This document shows, piece after piece, positions 5,591 to 61,971 of a stretch of 64,000 bases of DNA. Each line of letters opens with the position of its first letter. Position 1 is the stretch's first letter. The position numbers and the translations under genes are program-made. Under the pieces are notes generated by a model that had not been told where the DNA came from, did no database searches, and saw nothing but the letters and a program-made list of their open reading frames with translations. This DNA is from an uncultured Paraprevotella sp. (GTDB taxonomy: Bacteria; Bacteroidota; Bacteroidia; Bacteroidales; Bacteroidaceae): the NCBI GenBank assembly GCA_944321365.1, contig CALULA010000006.1, positions 62,001 to 126,000 of the forward strand, read 5' to 3'.

Positions 5591-7246
5591 ATGAAAAAGA
5601 CAATCATAAAAGGTGTGCTGGCCCTGACATTCGCGGGGGCCGCGCTGTCCTCTTGCGGCGATTTCCTGACCATCACTCCGCTCAACGGAGTGGTAGCCGA
5701 GAACTATTGGGAAAAGAAGAGCGAGGTGGAGAGCGTCATTACGTCCTGCTACTATGAGATGCAGAATGCAGACTTCATCCGGCGGGTGATTCTTTGGGGC
5801 GAGCTGCGGGGCGACAATGTGACGGACAACGCCGAGCTGCAGAAGGACAACGACCTGACATATTTCTATACCAACAACATCACGCCCAGCAATCCCTGGA
5901 CCTCGTGGGCTCCGTTCTATAATGTCATCAACCTGTGCAACACCGTCCTGCACTATGCGCCGCAGGCACAGGCGAAGGACGGCAACTACTCCATGGGAGA
6001 ACTGCAGACGCATCAGGCCGAGGCAAGGGCCATACGTGCGCTGTGTTATTTCTACCTCGTGCGTTCGTTCGAACGGCTGCCGCTGGTGACGCAGGCCACT
6101 ATCGGCGATGATGTGGACTTCAAGGTGGACGCCTCCGGCGAGGATGCCGTGCTCAATCTCATTGTCGAGGACCTGGAGTGGGCTGAGAAGCATATCTGGG
6201 ACCGCAAATATTTCGAGGAGCGTGCGGAGCAGAAGGGGCGGCTGAACAAGCAGTCCGTGCGTGCACTGTTGGCCGATGTGCATCTGTGGCGCGGCGACTA
6301 CGCGCAGTGTGCGGAATATTGCCGCCAGATCATGGACGAGAAGATGGCGGACTATAATGAGCTGCAGGAGCAGATAGCCGCCGGCGACTTCTCGGACTAC
6401 AGCTACGAGGGCGATTTGCGGCTTTATAATGGCTATCCGCTGCTGAACTCCTCCTACAATCCGACAATGTATTATGATTATCCTTACGAGATGATCTTTT
6501 ATACGGGCAATTCGTTCGAGAGCATCTTCGAGATGCAGTACAATCTGGAGTACCGGTCTAATGGCAATGAGGGCGTGACCTTTTTCTATGGTGCGCACGA
6601 CAATAATAACGGGCGGCTCGATGTGGCCACTTACATGACGACACGCACCAACGGGAGTCTGTTTGACAACATGGCGGACAAACGCCTGATGACGAACACC
6701 TCGTATGACGGAATGAACACCAGTTCTGCATACGTGGTGTACAAATTCCGCGGCATTCCGATGATTTCGAACGGTACGGTGACCCATGGATTGCGGTCCA
6801 CTGCCGAGAACTGGATTGTCTACCGCCTGACCGATGTGATGCTCATGCGTGCCGAGGCCCTGGCTTATATGGGCGGCGAGGAGAATTGCCGGGAGGCGTT
6901 CGACCTGGTGACGGCGGTCAATGCCAGAGCCTGCGGCGGAGCAAGCGAGCTGCAGTATGACGAGAGTCAGATCAAGACGCTCGTGCTCGACGAGCGTCAG
7001 CGCGAGCTGATGTTCGAGGGCAAGCGGTGGTACGACCTGGTGCGCATGGTGCGCCATTCGGATAATCCGACGCAGACCATGTCTGTCTTGCGCAACACTT
7101 ATCTGCTGCGTCGCTACAAGTCGAACGGCAACGACGCCGTGGCGCGTCTCGGCTCGCTGGACAATCTGTTCCTGCCGATTTATCAGAACGAGATCGATGT
7201 GAACCCGATGCTGGCGGACGACCAGAATCAGGCTTATGTATATTAA
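5591..7246 (+). CDS. RagB/SusD-family nutrient-binding lipoprotein
   Basis: This is a 551-residue protein with a lipoprotein signal peptide and a lipobox at 'LSSC' (cysteine about residue 21). It has the typical SusD start ('DFLTITPLNGVVAENYWEKKSEVES'-like region, quoted only as positions 24-48) and the conserved C-terminal phrase 'DERQRELMFEGKRWYDLVRM' (about 475-494). SusD proteins are surface lipoproteins that form the lid over the SusC barrel and bind the substrate. The gene follows its SusC by 20 bp and is followed at 30 bp by a FAS1 lipoprotein, consistent with one transcript. Confidence 0.95.
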   Translation: MKKTIIKGVLALTFAGAALSSCGDFLTITPLNGVVAENYWEKKSEVESVITSCYYEMQNADFIRRVILWGELRGDNVTDNAELQKDNDLTYFYTNNITPSNPWTSWAPFYNVINLCNTVLHYAPQAQAKDGNYSMGELQTHQAEARAIRALCYFYLVRSFERLPLVTQATIGDDVDFKVDASGEDAVLNLIVEDLEWAEKHIWDRKYFEERAEQKGRLNKQSVRALLADVHLWRGDYAQCAEYCRQIMDEKMADYNELQEQIAAGDFSDYSYEGDLRLYNGYPLLNSSYNPTMYYDYPYEMIFYTGNSFESIFEMQYNLEYRSNGNEGVTFFYGAHDNNNGRLDVATYMTTRTNGSLFDNMADKRLMTNTSYDGMNTSSAYVVYKFRGIPMISNGTVTHGLRSTAENWIVYRLTDVMLMRAEALAYMGGEENCREAFDLVTAVNARACGGASELQYDESQIKTLVLDERQRELMFEGKRWYDLVRMVRHSDNPTQTMSVLRNTYLLRRYKSNGNDAVARLGSLDNLFLPIYQNEIDVNPMLADDQNQAYVY

Positions 7247-16161: not shown

Positions 16162-16698
16162 ATGGAAACATTCACAGAAGAACATTTTTCAGCCTGCTAC
16201 CTGCGCTACCGTCCCGTGGTGCGCCGTTATATGGCGTTGCGTTTGCCCGACGCTTCGTTTGCCGACGACCTGACACAGGATGTCTTTGAGCATCTGTGGC
16301 GCAGCCGCGGCGTGATCCGGCTGGATGGCGACGGGAGTGTGTGGGGACTGGTGTGGTCCGTTGCGCGCAATATCCTGACCGACCATCTGCGCCGTCATGG
16401 CCGGCGGAGCGGTGTGATGAGCGCGTGGACGGAGGCCGTTGAGGGGACGGGTGCGGACGGTGCGGCTGCCGAGCATTGCCTAGCGGGTGAGCTTCGCCTC
16501 TGGCACCGTCGTGTGGTGGCCGGTCTGCCTGCACGCCGCCGCCGGATTTACCGTCTTTATTTTCTGGGCGGCATGTCGTATGCGGCCATTGCGCGTGAGT
16601 GTTCCGTCTCCGAGCGCACGGTGGGCACACAGCTCTGTCTGGCCTCACGTTTCATCCGTGCGTCACTGCAGGACATCTACAGCTATAAGGCGGGATGA
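16162..16698 (+). CDS. ECF-type RNA polymerase sigma factor
   Basis: This 178-residue protein has sigma region 2 at about 10-80 ('DDLTQDVFEHLWR' is the region 2.2-like core) and region 4 at about 115-170, with the helix-turn-helix 'SYAAIARECSVSERTVGTQL'. It belongs to the Bacteroidetes ECF group usually paired with a FecR-like anti-sigma factor and a SusC/D transporter. Here no fecR-like gene follows; the next gene is on the other strand. It has its own promoter and is separated from the SusCD unit by a terminator. It probably directs polymerase to a transporter locus, perhaps its neighbour, but that link is an inference from position. Confidence 0.92.
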   Translation: METFTEEHFSACYLRYRPVVRRYMALRLPDASFADDLTQDVFEHLWRSRGVIRLDGDGSVWGLVWSVARNILTDHLRRHGRRSGVMSAWTEAVEGTGADGAAAEHCLAGELRLWHRRVVAGLPARRRRIYRLYFLGGMSYAAIARECSVSERTVGTQLCLASRFIRASLQDIYSYKAG

Positions 16699-16789: not shown

Positions 16790-16855
16790 TTCCGCAAAGA
16801 TACGACCGGTCTTGCGCAAAGTCGGTCGGAGTCTTGCGCAAGACTGAAGTCCGCA
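16790..16855. repeat. TTGCGCAA array, 3 units, 22-bp period
   Basis: The core is at 16790 (TTCCGCAA, one mismatch), 16812 (exact) and 16834 (exact), spaced exactly 22 bp. The 14-nt spacers are unlike each other. The same arrangement occurs at 31515, 43067 and 61563. Confidence 0.85.
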
Positions 16856-17008: not shown

Positions 17009-20000
17009 TCATCCTTCCGGTTGCAGGGGAGTCAGATACTCCAGCAGCTCACGATAGGCGTCGGCTTGCCGTAGCAGAGGGGCGTTTCCCACGAGGAAGA
17101 ATTGTTTGCGGGCGCGGGTCAGGGCCACATTCAGTTTGCGGTCTATCCGGATGCCGTCGGTACTGACGGGGTCTGACAGGGTGGAGAGCTGATAGTAACG
17201 GCTGACGGTGGTGCTGAAGATGATGACGTCGCGCTGACTGCCCTGATAGCGTTCCACGGTGTCGATGGTGAGGTCTGCCGCTCCCGGCAGTCCGGTCTGC
17301 AGCAGTTTTTTGCGTATCATGGAGATTTGGGCGCGGAAAGGCACGATGATGCCGATGCGTTTGCCAATGTTTTCTTCTTCATCGTTCAGATGGAACAGGG
17401 CGTGCAGCGTCCTGATGAGCCGCACTGTGGCCTCGGCTTCCCGGATGTTGCTTCGCGGATGGGTCTCCTCTGGCGAAGGAGCGACAGAGAGCAGTCCCAT
17501 GCGCGTGCAGGCTATTGCGGCAGTCCACGGATCTGAAGGGTATCGGTCGAAAATCTGTTCCTCCTGTTGATGTCGCAGCGGTATGGTGTCCAGTTGGCCG
17601 TTGTAGAATTTCCGGCTGACGTATCGGCTGATGAGCGGATGCATGCGTCCTTGCCGGTGGAGCAGGGCCACGATGCCTTCTTTTTGTTGTATGCGGTTCA
17701 GGGCGTGCAGCCGTTCAAACAGCGAGTTGCGGCAGTCTGTCAGTCCGATGGCGTTCAGCGCGGCATGGGCCACGCGTGATTGTTCCGTGCGTTGCATCAC
17801 TACGGCCGGCAATTGCTTGTGGTCGCCGATAAGGATGAATTTGCGGATGGCGCATGTCGTTGTTGTCGCGTTTCCTTCCCGTTGTTTTCTGACGGCACAC
17901 AGCAATGGGAGCAGCTGAGGCTCCAGCACCTGTGAGGCTTCGTCGATGATGGCTACATCGAAACGTTTCAGGCAGAACAGCTCGCTGTGTGTGCACAGAC
18001 TGCTCACCGTGCCTGTAAAAAGTCTGATGGGGGTTATTGTCTCGCAGATCTGCCTGCGGGATTGTGCCTGGCTGATGACGTTCTTCAGCAGTCTGTGGCG
18101 GAACTCCGGGGCGCAGCTCAAGTCCTGTCCTATGCGGATATATTCGGGTGCAGGGTGCAGGGTGGAGAGCATGTTGCAGATTTCATCGACGGCCCGGTTT
18201 GTGTAAGCCATGAGCAACAGTTGTTTTTCCGGCCGGTCGGACAACAGTTCTTCTACGATGGACTTCAGGGCGACAGAGGTTTTTCCCGTTCCCGGCGGAC
18301 CTATCAGCAGGAAGTAGTCTTTGGCCTGTTTGGCTTGCAGCACGATTTTTGCCATGTCCGGGTCGGGATGGGGCAGGTTCAGCCGTATGCCGGTGTCGGT
18401 TTCCGGTTCACGGATTCCCAGCAACAGCGACTTGCGTTCCGGCGGGGCCGTGATGAAACTGAACAGTCCGGCGTAGGCCTGGCTGAACGAGGTGTCGGTG
18501 TAGCCCGGCTCTACGGCATAGAGGCTGCCGCAGTGGAATACGCTGGCGTTGCGTTGTTTGTAGGACAGTTTCAGCAACATCCGGTCGGGTTGTATGTCTT
18601 CTACCACGCAACGGAAGAACTGTTTGCTTATGACGTTGTCCTGTTCGCTGTTTCTTTCGTAGAGCATCACCATGTCGCCTTGCCTGAAATTGGGCAGGAA
18701 ATCCTCCTCGTATTCCGGAAAGTCCAGACGTACATGCGTGACGGTGCCTTGTTCATCTTTCAGCGGATGCAGGTGCAGGTCGGTCAGTATGTTGCCGTTT
18801 TGTTGTTTGGTAGGCGTGTCCTGGCACCAGGTTTCCGAGAATCCGCCGGTGGAGTCCGGGCGTCCGTCGCCCACTTTGGCCAGAAACTGTTCACGTTCCA
18901 TGAACGTCAGGAAGCGGTGAAAGTAGGCGGCTTCCAGCGGTTCCATGTGTCGGAGCGGGGCAAGTACGTGCTGTATGCGGGGCTGCAGATACCGCAGATA
19001 GAACGCATCGTGGCGTCCGGATGTGTTGATGCGCTCTTCTGTCATTTCCTGTAGCAGAGTGACCGATGCGCCGTTGCGCAGACGGTGTTCCATGTGGACC
19101 AGTTCGTTGCGTAAGGCGATGAGGCGTCGGATGTCCGACCGCGGTACGTCTATGGCATAGAGTTGCGGGTAGCGGGAGTAGAACAGGAACGACTGGACTT
19201 GTTCGCGTGCTTTGTCCATGTTGTAGTATAGAATCTCTTTGTAAAGAGCTATCTGCAGTTTGTGTTCCTCTTTGGGATGACGTTCCGGATATTCCTCGGC
19301 CTTTCCGCTTTTCAGTTCCACCAGCTTGTCGGCACTGCAGGTAAGCAGGTCCATTCGTCCTTGCAGTCCGAGGGCTTCGCAAAGGAACGAAGGTTCCAGC
19401 TGTACGTCCGTCTTGCGGATGTTGATGGCGGCGGTACTGAAACTTCCCCGTACGGTCTGGCGGATGTTGTGGAACTGTTTGCGGCATTGGTCGAAGAAGC
19501 TGCGGTCGATGTCCTGCAGGGTGGAGTAGACCAACGGATCCTGCCGGAAGCTTTTCAGCATGGAGCACAGGTAAAGTCCGTCTTCTGTCTGTTCCGCTGC
19601 GGCATCGTTCTCGTTTACGCAGTCGTCCAGAAACTGGTTGGCGGCATTTCCGGCCTGCAGCACGGCACTGCGCTCTGCCGGAGCGAATTTGAGCAGCAGG
19701 TGGGTATAGGGCGACCAGCCGTAGGGCCTGATGCAGCCTGCAACGGCAGTAATGTCCATCAGAAAATCCGGGTCGAGGACCAGCATTTCCGGTTGCAGTA
19801 CGTAGGGATGTTCCTTGCTGTCGTCAGCGTTGTTGACTGTCCACTTGACGGATAGCAGGTTGAGCTGTGCTCCTTCATACAGTTGGTTGCCCAGCTGTGC
19901 GAAAATGGTATTCCCCGCCGTGACGTAACTTATTTTCAGCAGTCGTTCTCTGGGTGCGTCGTTTTCCCGCCCGTAAATGAAGCGGTTGTTCCAGTGGTGT

Positions 20001-20425
20001 ACCGTGACACGCATGCGTTTGGTCTGTTTCCGCACATCGTCCGGCATGGCGATGCTTTTCCAATGTTGCGGCAACCGTTCGGCGAGTTGCTGTGGCAAGG
20101 GGGTGTGACAGAAGGCTGCCAGGCCTTCGCAGACGGCTTTCAGGTCGTAAGGGTAGTCCGGTCCGTTGGGTTGTAACGTCTGTTTCCGGATTTGGTATGC
20201 TCTTGCACGGAACACTTCCAGCGGATAAGCCTTATGGCCGGTTTGCTTGCAGAGCCAGTGCAGGCGGGCGGCCATGTTGGTGAAATCTACGGGACAGTCG
20301 CGGGTCAGCGTCTTCAGGCATCTGTTCAGTATTTGTTCCAGTGTCCGGTAACGCTCGGCAAGAGGAGCGTTCTTCCGTTCTGTCCGTAAGATTTCGTCAA
20401 AGGCATCCTGAAGTTCTTTCACCAT
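17009..20425 (-). CDS. Dna2-like protein: PD-(D/E)XK nuclease fused to a superfamily 1 helicase
   Basis: This 1138-residue protein combines two parts. At about residues 355-395 it has a RecB/Cas4-type nuclease signature: 'GRMD', then 'ELKSGK', then 'QIALYKE'. From about 705 it has an Upf1/Dna2-type SF1 helicase: Walker A 'GPPGTGKTS' (about 711), 'IIDEAS' (about 828), 'GDHKQLP' (about 865), 'ERYQGSQRD' (about 1060) and 'VALTRAR' (about 1103). The cysteines that hold the iron-sulphur cluster of Dna2 and Cas4 are not visible after the nuclease motif. It starts 2 bp after mltF and is the last gene of a udk-mltF-helicase unit. DNA repair or replication-fork processing is the family expectation. 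Confidence 0.88.
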   Translation of the reverse strand: MVKELQDAFDEILRTERKNAPLAERYRTLEQILNRCLKTLTRDCPVDFTNMAARLHWLCKQTGHKAYPLEVFRARAYQIRKQTLQPNGPDYPYDLKAVCEGLAAFCHTPLPQQLAERLPQHWKSIAMPDDVRKQTKRMRVTVHHWNNRFIYGRENDAPRERLLKISYVTAGNTIFAQLGNQLYEGAQLNLLSVKWTVNNADDSKEHPYVLQPEMLVLDPDFLMDITAVAGCIRPYGWSPYTHLLLKFAPAERSAVLQAGNAANQFLDDCVNENDAAAEQTEDGLYLCSMLKSFRQDPLVYSTLQDIDRSFFDQCRKQFHNIRQTVRGSFSTAAINIRKTDVQLEPSFLCEALGLQGRMDLLTCSADKLVELKSGKAEEYPERHPKEEHKLQIALYKEILYYNMDKAREQVQSFLFYSRYPQLYAIDVPRSDIRRLIALRNELVHMEHRLRNGASVTLLQEMTEERINTSGRHDAFYLRYLQPRIQHVLAPLRHMEPLEAAYFHRFLTFMEREQFLAKVGDGRPDSTGGFSETWCQDTPTKQQNGNILTDLHLHPLKDEQGTVTHVRLDFPEYEEDFLPNFRQGDMVMLYERNSEQDNVISKQFFRCVVEDIQPDRMLLKLSYKQRNASVFHCGSLYAVEPGYTDTSFSQAYAGLFSFITAPPERKSLLLGIREPETDTGIRLNLPHPDPDMAKIVLQAKQAKDYFLLIGPPGTGKTSVALKSIVEELLSDRPEKQLLLMAYTNRAVDEICNMLSTLHPAPEYIRIGQDLSCAPEFRHRLLKNVISQAQSRRQICETITPIRLFTGTVSSLCTHSELFCLKRFDVAIIDEASQVLEPQLLPLLCAVRKQREGNATTTTCAIRKFILIGDHKQLPAVVMQRTEQSRVAHAALNAIGLTDCRNSLFERLHALNRIQQKEGIVALLHRQGRMHPLISRYVSRKFYNGQLDTIPLRHQQEEQIFDRYPSDPWTAAIACTRMGLLSVAPSPEETHPRSNIREAEATVRLIRTLHALFHLNDEEENIGKRIGIIVPFRAQISMIRKKLLQTGLPGAADLTIDTVERYQGSQRDVIIFSTTVSRYYQLSTLSDPVSTDGIRIDRKLNVALTRARKQFFLVGNAPLLRQADAYRELLEYLTPLQPEG

Positions 20426-29327: not shown

Positions 29328-30379
29328 CCATGAGACCATTGCAACAGCTGGTGCGACCGAACATTTGGGCGTTGCATCCTTACAGTTCCGCCCGCGATGA
29401 GTATAGCGGTCATGAAGCGTCTGTCTTTCTGGACGCTAATGAGAATCCTTACAATTCGCCTTATAACCGTTATCCTGACCCTTTGCAAAAGGAGTTGAAG
29501 GCACAGTTGGCCGAAATCAAGGGCGTGAAGGCTGGCCAGATCTTCCTGGGTAACGGCAGTGACGAAGCCATCGATTTGGTGTATCGCGTTTTTTGCGAAC
29601 CCAGACAGGACAACGTCGTGGCCATAGCGCCCACTTACGGCATGTATAAAGTATGTGCCGACATCAATGATGTGGCTTACCGTTCCGTATTGTTGGACAA
29701 GGATTTCAAGTTGAATGCCGACAAGCTGCTGGCGGCTGTGGACGAACATACGAAGCTCATCTTCTTGTGTACACCGAATAATCCGTCGGGTAACTGTCTG
29801 GACCGCAATGAGGTCATACGGGTGATTGAGAATTTCTCCGGTCTGGTGGTGGTAGATGAGGCCTATTCCGACTTTTCCGCACAAAAGCCTTTCCGGGAAG
29901 AGTTGAAACGCTATCCGAATATCATTGTGCTGAATACGTTTTCCAAGGCCTGGGGGTGTGCGGCCATCCGTCTGGGCATGGCCTTTGCCCGCGAGGAGAT
30001 CATCGCATTGTTCAACAAAGTGAAGTACCCGTATAACGTGAATCTGCTGACACAGACGCAGGCTGTCGAGATGCTGAAGCGCCGTTACGACGTGGAGCGT
30101 TGGGTGAATCAGCTCTTGCGCGAGCGCAGTCAGGTAATGGTTGCTTTTGCAGAACTGGACATTTGCGAGAAGGTATATCCCACGGATGCCAACTTCTTTC
30201 TGGCCAAGGTGCATGGGGCAAACGACATATACGATTATCTGGTGCAGAAAGGCATTATCGTGCGCAACCGTTCCAAGGTGGAGCTGTGCGGCGACTGTCT
30301 GCGCATCACGGTGGGTACGCCGCAGGAGAACGACCGTCTGCTGGCCGTCTTGCGTACATATAAGAAGGAGGAAAGATGA
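29324..30379 (+). CDS. hisC: Histidinol-phosphate aminotransferase
   Basis: This 351-residue class I/II PLP aminotransferase makes histidinol phosphate from imidazole-acetol phosphate and glutamate. The N-terminal 'LDANENPY' and '[10 protein letters not shown]' motifs, 'CTPNNPSG' (about 148) and the PLP lysine in 'TFSKAWG' (about 207) are visible. It overlaps hisD and hisB by 4 nt each, so the three genes are translationally coupled. Confidence 0.97.
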
Positions 30380-31479
30380 AAAGGGCTTTGTTTATAGACC
30401 GTGACGGGACGCTGATCAAGGAGCCGGCAGACGAGCAGATTGACGCTTTTGAAAAGCTGGAGTTCGTTCCGGGCGTGATGCGCAACCTGAGTTTCATCCG
30501 CCATCGGTTGGATTATGAATTTGTCATGGTGAGCAATCAGGACGGATTGGGTACGGATGCTTTTCCGGAAAACACCTTCTGGCCTGTGCACAATCTGATG
30601 ATGCGCACGTTGGAAGGCGAAGGAGTCGTGTTTGATGATGTGCTCATCGACCGCAGTTTTCCTGCCGACGGCCTGCCTACCCGCAAACCGGGGACAGGCA
30701 TGTTGGGGCATTATATGTCGGGCGATTACGACATGGATTCCTGTTGGGTCATCGGCGACCGTGAGACTGATGCACAGCTGGCGTTGAATCTGGGCTGCCG
30801 TGCTTTGATATTGAAGCAGCGCGACAGTCAGTCTTCCGACGATGAACACATCCGTTACGTGGACAGTTGGGACCGCATTGCCGAGTTCCTCTTTGCAGGT
30901 GAACGTAAGGCCAGAGTGTGTCGCAAGACCAAAGAGACAGACATCGAAGTGCATGTGGATCTGGATGGCAGCGGCCGGTGTGACATCCGCACGGGGTTGG
31001 GCTTTTTCGACCATATGCTGGAGCAGATAGGCAAGCATGGCGGTCTGGATCTGTACGTGCGGACTGTCGGCGACTTGCAGGTAGACGAACATCATACGAT
31101 AGAGGACACCGCACTGGCTCTGGGTGAATGCCTGGCGCGTGCGTTGGGAGACAAGCGGGGCATTGAGCGTTATGGTTACTGTCTGCCCATGGACGATTGT
31201 CTGTGCAGTGTGGCCCTCGACTTCGGCGGACGGCCGTGGCTGGTGTGGCAGGCTGATTTCTGTCGCGAGAAGATCGGCGATGTGCCTACGGAGATGTTCC
31301 TCCATTTCTTCAAGAGCCTGAGCGATGCGGCACGGATGAATTTGAACGTCAAGGCAGAGGGAACGAATGAACACCATAAGATAGAAGGCATTTTCAAGGC
31401 CTTTGCCCGCAGCCTGAAGATGGCCGTACGGCGCGACATACACCATTTTGAGTTGCCGTCGAGCAAAGGGGTGCTTTGA
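30376..31479 (+). CDS. hisB: Bifunctional histidinol-phosphatase / imidazoleglycerol-phosphate dehydratase
   Basis: This 367-residue fusion has an N-terminal HAD phosphatase (about 1-165, nucleophile Asp in 'DRDGTL') and a C-terminal IGP dehydratase (about 175-367, with '[15 protein letters not shown]' and '[15 protein letters not shown]' metal-binding boxes). It carries out steps 6 and 8 of the pathway. The zinc loop of the E. coli phosphatase (Cys-x-His...Cys-x-Cys before 'RKP') is absent: here the segment before 'RKPGTG' (about 95-107) has no cysteine or histidine. The remaining his genes (hisH, A, F, I/E) are not in this window. Confidence 0.96.
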
Positions 31480-31514
31480 CTCCTTCGGTCACTTGCCGGA
31501 AAGTGAGCAGCGTC

Positions 31515-31588
31515 TTGCGCAAGAATCAATCTGTTCTTGCGCAAGACGCTGCCCTTTTTTGCGCAAGGATGCTTCCGCTTTTGCGCAC
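31515..31588. repeat. TTGCGCAA array, 4 units, 22-bp period
   Basis: The core is exact at 31515, 31537 and 31559 and TTGCGCAC at 31581, each step exactly 22 bp. It starts 35 bp after the hisB stop. The spacers differ between units. Confidence 0.9.
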
Positions 31589-31808: not shown

Positions 31809-32387
31809 ATGGAAAAGAGCATTAAGGGAACAAGAACGGAGAAGAACCTCATGGTGTCTTTCGCCGGTGAGTCGCAGGCGCGTATGAGATATACTTATTT
31901 TGCCAGTGTGGCGAAGAAAGAGGGTTACGAACAGGTGGCCGCCATCTTCACGGAGACGGCCGACCAGGAGAAGGAGCACGCCAAGCGCATGTTCAAGTGG
32001 CTGGAAGGCGGTATGGTGGAAATCACGGCAACCTATCCCGCAGGCGTCATCGGCACAACGCTTGAAAACCTGCAGGCGGCTGCCGCAGGCGAGCATGAGG
32101 AATGGTCTTTGGACTATCCTAAGTTTGCCGACATTGCCGACGAGGAAGGTTTTCCGGCCATAGCCGCCATGTACCGCATGATTGCCGTGGCCGAGAAAGG
32201 ACACGAGGAAAGGTATCTGGCCCTGTGGAACAATCTGAAGGACTACAAGGTGTTCGTCAAGGACGGCGAGACGGTGTGGCAGTGCCGCAACTGCGGTTAC
32301 ATCCATGTGGGCAAGGAAGCCCCTCAGGTATGTCCCGCCTGCCTGCATCCTCAGGCTTACTTCGAGGTGAAGAAGGAGAACTATTGA
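31809..32387 (+). CDS. rbr: Rubrerythrin
   Basis: This 192-residue cytoplasmic protein reduces hydrogen peroxide in anaerobes. The N-terminal ferritin-like di-iron domain (about 1-145) shows the ExxH pattern in 'DQEKEHAKR' (about 52) and 'EKGHEERY' (about 127). The C-terminal rubredoxin-like domain has 'CRNCGY' (about 158) and 'CPAC' (about 176) as iron ligands. It is monocistronic, with its own promoter and two hairpins downstream. Confidence 0.97.
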   Translation: MEKSIKGTRTEKNLMVSFAGESQARMRYTYFASVAKKEGYEQVAAIFTETADQEKEHAKRMFKWLEGGMVEITATYPAGVIGTTLENLQAAAAGEHEEWSLDYPKFADIADEEGFPAIAAMYRMIAVAEKGHEERYLALWNNLKDYKVFVKDGETVWQCRNCGYIHVGKEAPQVCPACLHPQAYFEVKKENY

Positions 32388-39814: not shown

Positions 39815-42967
<3,153 letters not shown>

Positions 42968-43066: not shown

Positions 43067-43140
43067 GTGCGGAATGTCGCTAAGAGTCTTGCGCAAAAGC
43101 GTGACCTTCCTTGCGCAAGACACAGACTGTTTTTGCTCAT
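43067..43140. repeat. TTGCGCAA array, 4 units, 22-bp period
   Basis: The core is at 43067 (GTGCGGAA), 43089 (exact), 43111 (exact) and 43133 (TTGCTCAT), all steps exactly 22 bp. The end units are more diverged than the central ones. Confidence 0.85.
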
Positions 43141-43306: not shown

Positions 43307-46063
43307 TTACGGCACGAGCACTTTCACTGTTCTGTTGCCTGCTTTCACAATATAAAGACCTTGAGGCAGCGGCGTGTCGGCAGGCATTTGCGTGCCGTTG
43401 AGACCATAGACGGCATAACGGTCTGTTCCTTTCACGATGATGCGTCCGCCGGAAACTTCCACCTGCAGCGGGCTGTCAGTCTTTACGTCGGCAATGTCTA
43501 CGCTGTTGGGGTCATCGCTGATGATGATCCAGCCCATATAGTCGCCGTTGTTGATACTTTCCAGTCCGGCGGTGGTGTTGGTCTCGTCTTTCTGGCGGAT
43601 GAGTCTCAGGCCGGTGACAGCTTCGCCGTTGTCGCTGTTCTGGGTATAAAGGGCGGAAATACGGTAAACTGAGGCCGCATCGAAGTTATTGGTCTGCGGG
43701 CCGCACAGGATATACGGATTGAGCAGGCTCAACGTCTGTCCTTCGCTGTCCGTGAAATTCATCAGACGCACGCGGCGTCCGTACACATAGTCGTCCATGT
43801 TCCGTCCCACTGTCAGCAGCTTGTTGTTGTCGGTTTCCGCCTGTCCGGGCGTAGCGGCCACGTAGAAGATGTTCTGGCTTAGGAACGTGCTTGAAGCGTT
43901 GTCCGCTGCCTCTTGCCGCACCAGCCTGACGGCGAAGCCTTCGTTTGTGACATCCAGCAGTTTGACCATATACGGATAGACTCTGTTGCGTGAGAAGACT
44001 GTGGTAAGTACAACGGGAGTCACGCCTTCAGCAAACGGTGTGTCGAAAGCGATCCACGTGCTGTCATTGCCGATTGCCGACGGGCTTTCGCCTGCCTGGA
44101 GCGTGATGTCGCCAATCTCGTGCGTGCCTTTGCTGAACACCATGAAGTCTGCGGTTTCCGGTGTCTCGTAGGTTTCAGTAAAGTCTCCCTGGTTCCAGGG
44201 GAATCCCCAACTGGTGAAGCGGTCTGCATAGACGGAAGCGACTGTGGCTACAGGCACTGTGACCGTATTGTTGTAGGTGGGCAGACCGATGATGACGGCG
44301 GGTGAGTCATCGTCCGATGCGTCGAAATAAGTGGTGAACTGTTCGGCATCGTTGTACGTCAGTGTGCCGTATTGGAAACCGGGAGTGCCTTGTGCGCCGA
44401 TGAGCGAGAGCGTGAACTCTCCGCTCATGCGTTCCCGTCCGTCGAGGTCGTAGTTATGGATGCGGTAGGTGTAGATGCCTTTCTGATAGTCTGCGGGGAA
44501 TGTCTCCTCGTAGGTGTATGCCGACCGTTCGGAGGATTCGTACTTCTGCACGGTGGTCCATTCTCCGTCGTCGATGCGCAGTTCCAGCAGAGTGGAGTCC
44601 GTCAGCTCCATGTTCTTGTTGGTCCAGGAGATTTCCAGCTTGCGGGTGCGTTCCGTATAGGTGCCGGTGAACTTGCTGGGTGCTTTATAGACCACGAGAG
44701 GCACGAACTCATATTCCTTGTTGTAGCCGATGCCGGACTTCATCTCGGCGTAGAATTCGCCCAGAATGGACAGCCCGCCGTCCTTGTATATTTTGGAGCA
44801 GTCGGCCTCACTGTTCCAGTAGGCGTAGCGTTCCACGTAGGGGAAGCCGTTCCATTGGGTGAGCACGTTGCTCATCACGTCGTAGTTCCGTTGCTGGTTC
44901 TCGATGGAATAGGTGCGGTCGCTGTCGAAGATGCCGTTGTTGTTCCATGAGGCTCCCCAGACGAACTCGGAGATCCACAGCGGACGTTTGTATCTGTCGT
45001 ACCATCCCTGCAGCTGGTTGAGCAGGTTCCATTCGGGCCAGTAGCAGTGCAGGTCCACAATGTCGCACCGCCAGCCGCGGGCGTCGATGGAGTCCATGAA
45101 CGCATACATCCAGTTGAGGCTGCCGTCGTGCGAGGAGGGCGAGCACAGGCGTTTCCCTGTGGCCATAAGATCCTCCCAGGTGGCTAATACGTCATCAAGG
45201 TCTTCGGTGCCGTGGTCCGACGGGTTGCCTGGCTCGTTGTTGGTCTTCAGATGCGGGGAATATTCCAGACTTCCCAAGGAACTTACTGTAGGCCAGCCAC
45301 AGTCAATCTTGTGCGGCACGCACTCACAGTCGATTCCCCGGTCCTCTCCCGGCCCGAAACTGTAGCACCACGACACGTTTAGTGCGTCGGTTATCTCGGC
45401 TCCCGTATCGTTGGCTATACCTTTCTTCTCGGCGTCGTTCCACTTGAAGATGCGGTAGGAGGAGATGTGCTGGTCGAGTACGGCGGGGAGGGTGGCCATT
45501 TCGAGGTCTTCGGTGTCGGCGATGAAGCAGCGGCTGTAACCCCGTCCGCCGCTGCTGATGGAGAAGGTGACCATGTAGCCTCTTTTGAGCTTGAAGCTGC
45601 GTATGCGGTTGTTGAGCTTGGCGGTACTCAGCGTGTTCATGTAACCGCCGGAGTTTTCCAGTCCGAAGTCATTGACCGACTCGCCGCCGAAGTTCTGTTC
45701 TGAGTAGACGGTGAGCGGTTTGATGTCTTTGCTGTAGGGCATGATGATGGCTCCTGAGGCATACATCTTCACCTGGCAGTTCTCATCGTTCACGGCAGGT
45801 TCGCCGTTGATGGTGATGAAGGACAGGTAGGAGAGGGCTTGGCTTGGCCGGAGCTGCTCCATGATGACTACGGCATGTTCCGTGTTGGTGATGTTGATGC
45901 TTCCGGCTGCTCCGAAAGGTGTGTCACCAGAAATAGTGTAGTCCACATCACTGTCGAGCGTGACGGGTTCGGTAACTTGAGTGATGCGTGTGACTGTGTT
46001 TTTGGCCAGGGCAGTGCAACTGAGTGCTGCGGCTAATGCGAGCGTAAAGATTTTGCTTTTCAT
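43307..46063 (-). CDS. Secreted GH128-like glycoside hydrolase (Asl1-like) with sorting domain
   Basis: This 918-residue protein has a signal peptide (about 1-20), an N-terminal beta-rich region (about 25-215) and a TIM-barrel-like domain (about 220-460). The barrel matches the Asl1/GH128 pattern: 'VSWCYSFGPG', acid/base Glu in 'NNEPGNP' (about 276) and nucleophile Glu in 'WISEFVWG' (about 366). GH128 enzymes are endo-beta-1,3-glucanases. Beta-sandwich domains and a T9SS-like C-terminal domain ('RYAVYGLNG...LPQGLYIVKAG') follow. The catalytic assignment rests on motifs read by eye. A GH43 gene lies upstream, 73 bp away. Confidence 0.75.
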   Translation of the reverse strand: MKSKIFTLALAAALSCTALAKNTVTRITQVTEPVTLDSDVDYTISGDTPFGAAGSINITNTEHAVVIMEQLRPSQALSYLSFITINGEPAVNDENCQVKMYASGAIIMPYSKDIKPLTVYSEQNFGGESVNDFGLENSGGYMNTLSTAKLNNRIRSFKLKRGYMVTFSISSGGRGYSRCFIADTEDLEMATLPAVLDQHISSYRIFKWNDAEKKGIANDTGAEITDALNVSWCYSFGPGEDRGIDCECVPHKIDCGWPTVSSLGSLEYSPHLKTNNEPGNPSDHGTEDLDDVLATWEDLMATGKRLCSPSSHDGSLNWMYAFMDSIDARGWRCDIVDLHCYWPEWNLLNQLQGWYDRYKRPLWISEFVWGASWNNNGIFDSDRTYSIENQQRNYDVMSNVLTQWNGFPYVERYAYWNSEADCSKIYKDGGLSILGEFYAEMKSGIGYNKEYEFVPLVVYKAPSKFTGTYTERTRKLEISWTNKNMELTDSTLLELRIDDGEWTTVQKYESSERSAYTYEETFPADYQKGIYTYRIHNYDLDGRERMSGEFTLSLIGAQGTPGFQYGTLTYNDAEQFTTYFDASDDDSPAVIIGLPTYNNTVTVPVATVASVYADRFTSWGFPWNQGDFTETYETPETADFMVFSKGTHEIGDITLQAGESPSAIGNDSTWIAFDTPFAEGVTPVVLTTVFSRNRVYPYMVKLLDVTNEGFAVRLVRQEAADNASSTFLSQNIFYVAATPGQAETDNNKLLTVGRNMDDYVYGRRVRLMNFTDSEGQTLSLLNPYILCGPQTNNFDAASVYRISALYTQNSDNGEAVTGLRLIRQKDETNTTAGLESINNGDYMGWIIISDDPNSVDIADVKTDSPLQVEVSGGRIIVKGTDRYAVYGLNGTQMPADTPLPQGLYIVKAGNRTVKVLVP

Positions 46064-60392: not shown

Positions 60393-61511
60393 TTACAGTT
60401 CGCTTTCTTTCATCCGCTCGGCGTTCTCGGCCACGGTGAGCTGGTCGATGCAGTCCTGGATGTTGCCGTCCATGAACGACGGCAGGTTCTGCATGTTGTA
60501 GCCGATGCGGTGGTCGGTGATGCGGCTCTGCGGGTAGTTGTAGGTGCGTATCTTGGCTGAGCGGTCGCCGGTGGACACCATGGTCTTGCGGCGGCTGGCG
60601 ATGTCGTCGATATACTTCTGGTGTTCCTTGTCGTAGATGAACGTGCGCAGCCGGGCCAGTGCGCGCTCCTTGTTCTTGGGCTGGTCGCGCGTCTCCGTAC
60701 ATTCGATGAGGATTTCCTCCGTCTCGCCCGTGTTGGGATTCTTCCACATGTAGCGGGCCCGTACGCCGGACTCCACCTTGTTCACGTTCTGTCCGCCCGC
60801 ACCGCTGGAGCGGAAGGTGTCCCACTTGATTTCGCCCTCGTTGATTTCCACGTCGAACTCCTGCGCTTCGGGCAGCACGGCTACCGTTGCCGCTGACGTG
60901 TGCACCCGTCCCTGCGTCTCGGTGGCGGGCACGCGCTGCACGCGGTGTACGCCCGACTCATATTTCAGTGTCCCGTAAACCTTCTCGCCCGTCACGCTGA
61001 AGATGATTTCCTTGAAGCCGCCCGCCGCGCCTTCCGTATAACTGGACACGGCGATTTTCCAGCCTTTCATCTCGCAGTATTTGGTGTACATGCGGAACAG
61101 GTCACCGGCAAAGAGCGCGGCCTCGTCGCCTCCCGTTCCGCCCCGTATCTCCATGATGACGTTCTTGTCGTCCTCAGGGTCGGCGGGCACGAGCAGCAGC
61201 TTGATGTGCTCCTCTATCTCCGGGATGCGCCGTTCGGCGGCGGTCATTTCCTCGCGGGCCATGTCCTTCATCTCCGGGTCGTCTTCCGCAGCCAGCATTT
61301 CCTTGGCGTCCTGTATGGTCTGCAGGCAGTTCAGGTAGTCCTGCCGGGCTTTCATGATGTCGCTCAGGTCTTTGTATTCCTTGGTCAGTTTCACGTAGCG
61401 TTTCTGGTCGCTGATGACGCTGGGGTCGGTGATGAGCGTGCCCACTTCCTCGTAGCGGCTCACCAGGCCGTCCAGTTTGTCCAGTATAGAATTGTTTTCT
61501 GCCATAATCAT
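60393..61511 (-). CDS. prfA: Peptide chain release factor 1
   Basis: This 372-residue factor ends translation at UAA and UAG. The anticodon-like tripeptide is in 'VPATE' (about 195) and the catalytic 'GGQ' is in 'SGAGGQNVNK' (about 239). The N-terminal coiled region is normal in length. A -7 element lies at 61525-61532 and the TTGCGCAA array begins just upstream of it. Confidence 0.97.
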   Translation of the reverse strand: MIMAENNSILDKLDGLVSRYEEVGTLITDPSVISDQKRYVKLTKEYKDLSDIMKARQDYLNCLQTIQDAKEMLAAEDDPEMKDMAREEMTAAERRIPEIEEHIKLLLVPADPEDDKNVIMEIRGGTGGDEAALFAGDLFRMYTKYCEMKGWKIAVSSYTEGAAGGFKEIIFSVTGEKVYGTLKYESGVHRVQRVPATETQGRVHTSAATVAVLPEAQEFDVEINEGEIKWDTFRSSGAGGQNVNKVESGVRARYMWKNPNTGETEEILIECTETRDQPKNKERALARLRTFIYDKEHQKYIDDIASRRKTMVSTGDRSAKIRTYNYPQSRITDHRIGYNMQNLPSFMDGNIQDCIDQLTVAENAERMKESEL

Positions 61512-61562: not shown

Positions 61563-61614
61563 TTGCGGAAAGTCGTTGCAGGTTTTGCGCAAGAGTCCGT
61601 CCGGTTTTGCGCAA
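61563..61614. repeat. TTGCGCAA array, 3 units, 22-bp period
   Basis: The core is at 61563 (TTGCGGAA), 61585 (exact) and 61607 (exact), steps exactly 22 bp. It starts about 30 bp upstream of the prfA -7 element. Confidence 0.9.
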
Positions 61615-61720: not shown

Positions 61721-61971
61721 CTGAGGATATATATCTTTAGCTTAGAGATACACATCTTTAGGCTGAGGATATATATCTTTAACCTGAAGATATAGTTTTG
61801 TTCCGGCTTTTCCGCAGTTTGTCTTGCGGGCAGACCGGCTTTTCTTCCCGTACGGTCCGGCTTTTTCTACCTCATAGTGCGGGTTTTTCCTTCTCATGGC
61901 GTGGATTTTTCCCCCTTTATGGTGCGGTTCTTGTCCGCTCGTGCCCCGCATTCCGTTCCTTCTGTCGGTCT
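61721..61971. repeat. Twelve-unit degenerate array, 21-22 bp period
   Basis: Four AT-rich units start at 61721, 61742, 61763 and 61784 (CTGAGGATATA-like, step 21, with ATCTTTA at 61733, 61754, 61775). The register then continues at 22-bp steps with T-rich starts at 61796, 61818, 61840, 61862, 61884, 61906 and 61928, and a weaker one at 61950; these units mostly end in a G-rich tail (such as GTGCGG or GTCCGGC). The best-conserved adjacent units are those at 61884 and 61906. Confidence 0.75.

Follow-up and report, generated by a model that had tools for sequence, protein, structure and literature searches.

What role does an eight-base palindrome play when it recurs at exactly 22 bp in several intergenic regions of an uncultured Paraprevotella sp.? 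The window, that is the whole 64,000-bp stretch of DNA analysed, corresponds to positions 62001-126000 of contig C6 in an assembly of 2,735,526 bp and 28 contigs (hereafter the source genome). It contains 11 exact copies of the core TTGCGCAA, compared to a mean of 1.40 and a largest value of 4 in 100 shuffles, and nine of the 11 fall into four arrays at exact 22-bp steps, all of them intergenic and all extended by near copies in the same register. The remaining two are lone copies within open reading frames, at 7088 and 27483. The arrays and their neighbours are given below, where a core without a sequence in brackets is an exact TTGCGCAA.

Array A, 16790..16841, no strand assigned: cores at 16790 (TTCCGCAA), 16812 and 16834
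Array A neighbours, convergent: ECF sigma factor gene, 16162-16698, + strand; helicase-like AAA gene, 17009-20425, - strand
Array B, 31515..31588, no strand assigned: cores at 31515, 31537, 31559 and 31581 (TTGCGCAC)
Array B neighbours: hisB, 30376-31479, + strand, ending 35 bp before the array; rubrerythrin gene, 31809-32387, + strand, beyond it
Array C, 43067..43140, no strand assigned: cores at 43067 (GTGCGGAA), 43089, 43111 and 43133 (TTGCTCAT)
Array C neighbours, convergent: beta-galactosidase gene, 39848-42967, + strand; glycosyl hydrolase gene, 43307-46063, - strand
Array D, 61563..61614, no strand assigned: cores at 61563 (TTGCGGAA), 61585 and 61607
Array D neighbour: prfA (release factor 1), 60393-61511, - strand, with the array upstream of it

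The initial annotation had described nine exact and five near copies in four intergenic arrays at exactly 22 bp, separated by 14-nt spacers unlike each other, and every part of this description was recovered in the window. It had also singled out the array upstream of prfA as the key locus; the neighbouring gene is indeed release factor 1 according to every named homologue among the matches listed (the best named being one Clostridium sp. bin at 89% identity and Paraprevotella sp. bins at 88%), but array D proved to be an ordinary member of the 67 arrays found in 864 kb. Array B continues at 31505-31560 as an extended inverted repeat with CCTTTTTT after it, and may thereby also terminate the his operon. 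An AT-rich TGAGGATATATATCTTTAGC-type repeat with a 21-bp step was observed at 61721-61795, some 100 bp past array D (30/40 positions match at lag 21), and may constitute a second phased family. An Rfam scan of the window yielded no match above gathering scores.

Phased cores across the genome

Genome-wide, TTGCGCAA was present in 388 copies compared to 12 of its reversed control word. In the genome-wide spacing scan that the initial annotation had proposed, a sharp peak emerged, with 140 of the 142 pairs at steps of 12-42 bp lying at exactly 22 bp; 44- and 66-bp steps also occur and represent arrays with a worn middle core. Detailed anatomy was obtained from 864 kb, made up of the window and a further 800 kb of stretches, with genes called by a home-made ORF caller. 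When one exact core was required, 45 arrays were identified in these 864 kb, 38 of which had three or four cores. Arrays accounted for 99 of the 118 exact cores (94 intergenic, 5 in called genes), and all 19 lone copies were located within called genes, with no lone copy in intergenic DNA. Neither a flat spacing distribution nor an equal density in coding sequence was therefore seen. A 22-bp weight matrix detected 67 arrays in the same 864 kb, 9 of them centred in called genes, while the same matrix at steps of 19, 20, 21, 23, 24 and 25 bp detected 0-2. With respect to gap class, there were 31 arrays in the 61 convergent gaps, 25 in the 164 tandem gaps and 4 in the 69 divergent gaps, with seven outside called gaps, showing that they favour convergent and 3' gaps over divergent ones.

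Mismatches at the eight core positions numbered 30, 0, 10, 3, 5, 14, 6 and 19 among 168 cores, the second base being unchanged, and by these position-specific mismatches the core KTGCGCAM resembles a protein site. Among 56 of the 14-nt spacers, a weak and symmetric consensus emerged, GRMYGNNNNCRKYC, whose middle is open; the contrast between core and spacer is partly ascertainment, because the arrays were located via their cores. Spacer identity between arrays (5.32/14) equalled the expectation from column composition (5.33), which argues that the source-genome arrays are not recent copies of one element, and neighbouring spacers inside one array were slightly more alike (5.81/14). The best between-array matches in the source genome fell inside the arrays, with no common sequence beyond the motif. 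Pairing covariation was below chance across the spacer (z = -2.67, 103 spacers) and not significant around the core (z = 1.10, 150 units). A replication-strand orientation was tried and set aside; the left/right asymmetry of source-genome spacers tracks contig GC skew.

Past the last good core of an array, the motif decays in phase. At successive outward 22-bp steps, core GC was found at 34, 26, 20, 16, 12 and 9 of 90 ends (6.7 expected), compared to 1-10 of 90 when the same six steps were sampled 4, 6 or 11 bp out of phase. The decay was clear for the first four steps, and the fifth (12/90, P = 0.034) was not above some unphased positions (≤16/90). For the congener G048, 14 elements (28 ends), some of which share a copied origin, were aligned on their own palindrome; TGCGG appeared at -7, -29 and -51, and no column from -46 to -30 exceeded 0.6 bits. 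In both genomes the phased motif fades without a sharp end, a pattern suggestive of a protein that loads cooperatively, first at a strong centre and then two helical turns at a time towards the flanks.

The arrays are also evenly placed along the chromosome. In the source genome (67 arrays, 864 kb), the mean spacing was 12.4 kb and the minimum 3.3 kb, with a CV of 0.434 compared to 0.924 ± 0.111 for a null of random gaps with matching class preferences, and 0 of 5000 nulls were equally regular; for exact-core arrays alone the CV was 0.598 versus 0.945 (P = 0.0004). Even spacing was likewise observed, among the matches listed, in G048 (47 arrays on 5 contigs, CV 0.616 versus 0.913, P = 0.00095, minimum 4.6 kb) and in a second congener, G022 (41 arrays on 9 contigs, CV 0.515 versus 0.820, P = 0.0005, minimum 12.9 kb). 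Both lists consist of exact matches; the null draws array positions uniformly, with the first and last of every contig kept fixed. The last, incomplete G048 contig was left out, as were those G022 contigs on which fewer than three arrays were listed. Within 140 kb of contig C1 of G048, 14 elements with at most 2 mismatches were 9.9 kb apart (CV 0.298; null 0.785, P = 0.0002). A looser G048 detector (at most 4 mismatches) gave 35 hits, 19 of them outside gaps, with a CV of 0.880 versus a null of 0.747, and was discarded as noise.

The 22-bp step in relatives

Besides the even placement along the chromosome, the initial annotation had not foreseen that the word is not conserved across relatives. 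Pairs of TTGCGCAA at 22 bp were detected in 3 of 301 family genomes (140 in the source genome, 4 in G152 and 1 in G226), and in 0 of 17 other genomes of the genus. The reversed control word, AACGCGTT, itself formed 22-bp pairs: 72, 17, 17 and 16 in four members of genus g30, and a single one in each of five other genomes. Three genomes were read, and the g30 spacers look copied. G048 uses AGTACTCGAGTACT (26 pairs by degenerate pattern, 227 copies of the 12-mer) and G022 uses CTTGCCGCAAAG (61 forward, 60 reverse). In a scan of named genomes, which near relatives may lie outside, four exact TTGCGCAA in a row occurred in the Bacteroidaceae MAG RUI569 (four contigs), in Reichenbachiella agariperforans and in an Oscillospiraceae MAG, where the instance is a perfect tandem satellite. 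The four copies in Reichenbachiella agariperforans, a distant member of the Bacteroidota, lie at 22-bp steps in L018 (7055-7128). One of the G152 pairs is situated within GAACAATTGCGCAATTCTTTGT (L061, 8757-8786), and the three further pairs of that genome have another spacer in common.

A word-free scan of intergenic DNA yielded 37 arrays at lag 22 in the source genome, compared to 0-4 at lags 15-30. Among congeners, the lag-22 counts were 9 in G048, 8 in G022, 3 in G188, 2 each in G118 and G103, and 1 each in G069 and G146, those of 1-3 being weak singly; the count was 0 in G087 (40 kb) and G132 (20 kb). Across 20 genomes from 19 other genera (at most 20 kb each), lag 22 scored 17, in 11 of the genomes, some of these cases being AT-rich and unconvincing singly. 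In the same 20 genomes, lags that are not multiples of 3 scored at most 4, lag 44 scored 6, and multiples of 3, which accompany coding repeats, scored up to 18. A single lag-22 hit was obtained in 200 kb of E. coli K-12. Of the arrays from the word-free scan, palindromy was significant in 23 of 37 in the source genome, 18 of 26 in congeners and 9 of 25 in other genera, and is thus not universal. G010 carried 10 lag-22 arrays with several words in 80 kb, and G008 carried 3 in 60 kb. At four G010 loci (L172 and L186-L188), the short palindromic arms vary between arrays and stay complementary around AGTG or CGTG, as might be expected if structure is constrained in this genus.

Signs of copying and of turnover were found in some of these genomes. 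In G022, the five array copies examined are each embedded in a dispersed repeat, intergenic and about 500 bp long:

G022 copies of the ~500-bp repeat: contig C1 near 13390, 36053, 65252 and 100895; contig C2 near 11483

Some G048 elements share long matches and look copied. Flank-matched arrays of the close genomes G148 and G089 (L062 and L076) differ by one 22-bp unit, indicating that unit number changes. Genome-wide, orthologous 3' ends shared arrays in 5 of 132 cases compared to 4.0 expected, with two of the five in one gap, and orthologous 5' ends in 2 of 146, both within one gap; conserved array positions between species were therefore rejected, there being no excess over chance. At the 3' flank of hisB, a locus picked for its array in the source genome, 6 of 16 genomes (the source genome, G048, G069, G188, G229 and G202) displayed a lag-22 array and 10 had none, with five words used across the six genomes and one shared by G069 and G188. 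We take this recurrence to reflect the general 3' preference, a recurrent site being possible.

Candidate explanations

Step, word, location and spacing being observed, we infer from them a protein and a function. With slightly more doubt than conviction, we propose that the arrays are evenly spaced platforms bound by a dimeric protein that recognises specific DNA sequences. This protein would load on the strongest palindromes, would extend outward from them in 22-bp (two helical turn) steps, and, sitting at evenly spaced intergenic sites, would organise or partition the chromosome. The protein reading the cores would probably be cooperative as well as dimeric and would change its specificity quickly between species, and its chromosome-scale role may be of the domain-boundary, nucleoid-organisation or nucleoid-occlusion type. 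The initial annotation had likewise suggested sites for a dimeric protein with a core under selection; position-specific core mismatches, variable spacers, the lack of hairpin covariation and the outward phased decay fit this suggestion, but a reader protein was not found. The several words within 80 kb of G010 make a one-protein reading harder. A wider idea, possible in our view and leaning towards doubtful, is that of a family-wide chromosome-organising code in Bacteroidales, in which the geometry would be fixed and the word would be rewritten per lineage by a fast-evolving DNA-polymerising partner protein. Its geometry, proposed with the same reserve, would comprise 22-bp palindromes graded from a nucleation core, in arrays placed every 10-30 kb and mostly at gene ends.

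The hard minimum distances between arrays could also arise if these were non-autonomous mobile elements that carry 22-bp transposase sites of their own and stay at a distance from each other through target immunity, an account we judge rather unlikely; we are equally sceptical that the source-genome arrays are old copies of such elements eroded to their cores. Tn7- and Mu-type transposases have sites of about 22 bp, and the ~500-bp dispersed repeat around the G022 arrays examined, the copy-like spacers of g30, the long matches among some G048 elements and the different words carried by close species all favour mobility. However, spacers of the source genome show no common ancestry between arrays and its core mismatches are strongly position-specific, the phased motif decays outward without a sharp end there and in G048, and RAYT is absent from the source genome. 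A search for a Mu-type transposase found no match, the control genomes being likewise silent, and a search of viral_contigs with two array words also found none. The two main readings would be united if the arrays had arisen as mobile elements and later come to serve as binding sites.

The 3' and convergent placement would also suit bidirectional transcription terminators or 3'-end RNA hairpins, which we regard as improbable. Array B, with its long inverted repeat followed by CCTTTTTT, conforms to this, and among 21 convergent source-genome arrays, 9 overlap a hairpin and T run of terminator type on one strand or both and 10 have no separate terminator on either side; but 11 of the 21 are already preceded by a terminator-like site on at least one side, pairing across spacers is below chance, T is not enriched outward of array ends, and the even spacing and exact 22-bp step are left unexplained. 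Given no covariation and no overall T enrichment, an RNA hairpin was rejected as the general reading, although some arrays (9/21) may still terminate. The same placement is compatible with strong DNA gyrase (or other topoisomerase) sites relieving supercoils at gene ends, a very improbable explanation by our estimate; gyrase is conserved between species, and the words nevertheless differ between close ones. The part of PMC6379681 cited here describes an enrichment of E. coli gyrase cleavage downstream of operons with high transcription, which agrees with gyrase sites, yet the E. coli motif has a period of 10.75 bp and the arrays have one of 22 bp, with no enrichment at an 11-bp shift.

Under the binding-platform proposal, the feature would point to a new factor acting in the nucleoid or in cell division, in one of the major groups of gut bacteria. 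With the geometry kept while the sequence is replaced between close species, selection would act on phase and spacing, not on the word. It would become directly testable, across species, which DNA-binding protein goes with which genome-wide set of sites, and the even spacing would give access to the question of how cells distribute such sites over the whole chromosome. In the literature searched, which took in few subscription journals, no description of 22-bp-step arrays in this group was found.

Comparison with known systems

CRISPR units are far longer than an 8-bp core with 14-nt spacers. Porphyromonas gingivalis possesses a 22-bp direct repeat, DR22, which was not found in the literature searched. 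The BrickBuilt MITE of the same species is described, in the sections of PMC4596501 used here, as an intergenic element with a 23-nt tandem unit (19 copies), with no spacers in that description and with a leader and a tail that have inverted-repeat ends. To the extent of that description, it resembles the arrays as a short tandem unit in intergenic elements of Bacteroidales; membership was rejected because the arrays combine a 22-bp step with variable 14-nt spacers, versus a spacerless 23-nt unit. For MITEs in general, which would have inverted-repeat ends, a target-site duplication and a sequence shared by all copies, the observations point both ways: source-genome arrays share nothing outside the motif and G048 elements fade in phase, whereas the G022 arrays examined belong to the ~500-bp repeat.

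REP/BIME elements, as portrayed in the relevant part of PMC2817692, are dispersed extragenic palindromes in phased clusters with alternating orientation. On that partial account, REP/BIME with RAYT are like the arrays as dispersed extragenic palindromes in phased clusters, whereas the arrays have a short phased core with free spacers versus a copied hairpin, and differ further in their even genome spacing and in a word that varies between close species. Y1_Tnp (RAYT) had 0 matches in the source genome and was matched in 1 of 18 genus genomes and 5 of 14 control genomes; RAYT-driven REPs were rejected given its absence from the source genome and the lack of hairpin covariation or between-array ancestry. 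The E. coli gyrase motif extends over about 130 bp with a 10.75-bp GC period, according to the excerpted part of PMC6379681, and is there, like the arrays, a long phased GC pattern downstream of transcription units. Its sequence is described in that part as degenerate, in contrast to the fixed palindrome and 22-bp period of the arrays, and membership was rejected because enrichment occurred at 22-bp steps only, with none at an 11-bp shift.

A Noc/ParB-type network was rejected in the strict sense, since a ParB paralogue was not found in the source genome, which has exactly one ParB_N match. For Noc and SlmA, the passages drawn from PMC4331003 and PMC4117426 describe a dimeric protein that spreads from palindromic sites scattered over the chromosome. 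Within what those passages cover, such networks share with the proposed platforms both scattered palindromes and nucleation followed by spreading. The arrays are unlike Noc and SlmA sites in being grouped at a 22-bp step, and would be about three times as many as the ~70 Noc sites if 67 per 864 kb holds genome-wide. By analogy, nucleation and spreading of the Noc and SlmA kind is the closest working analogue of the binding platforms proposed here.
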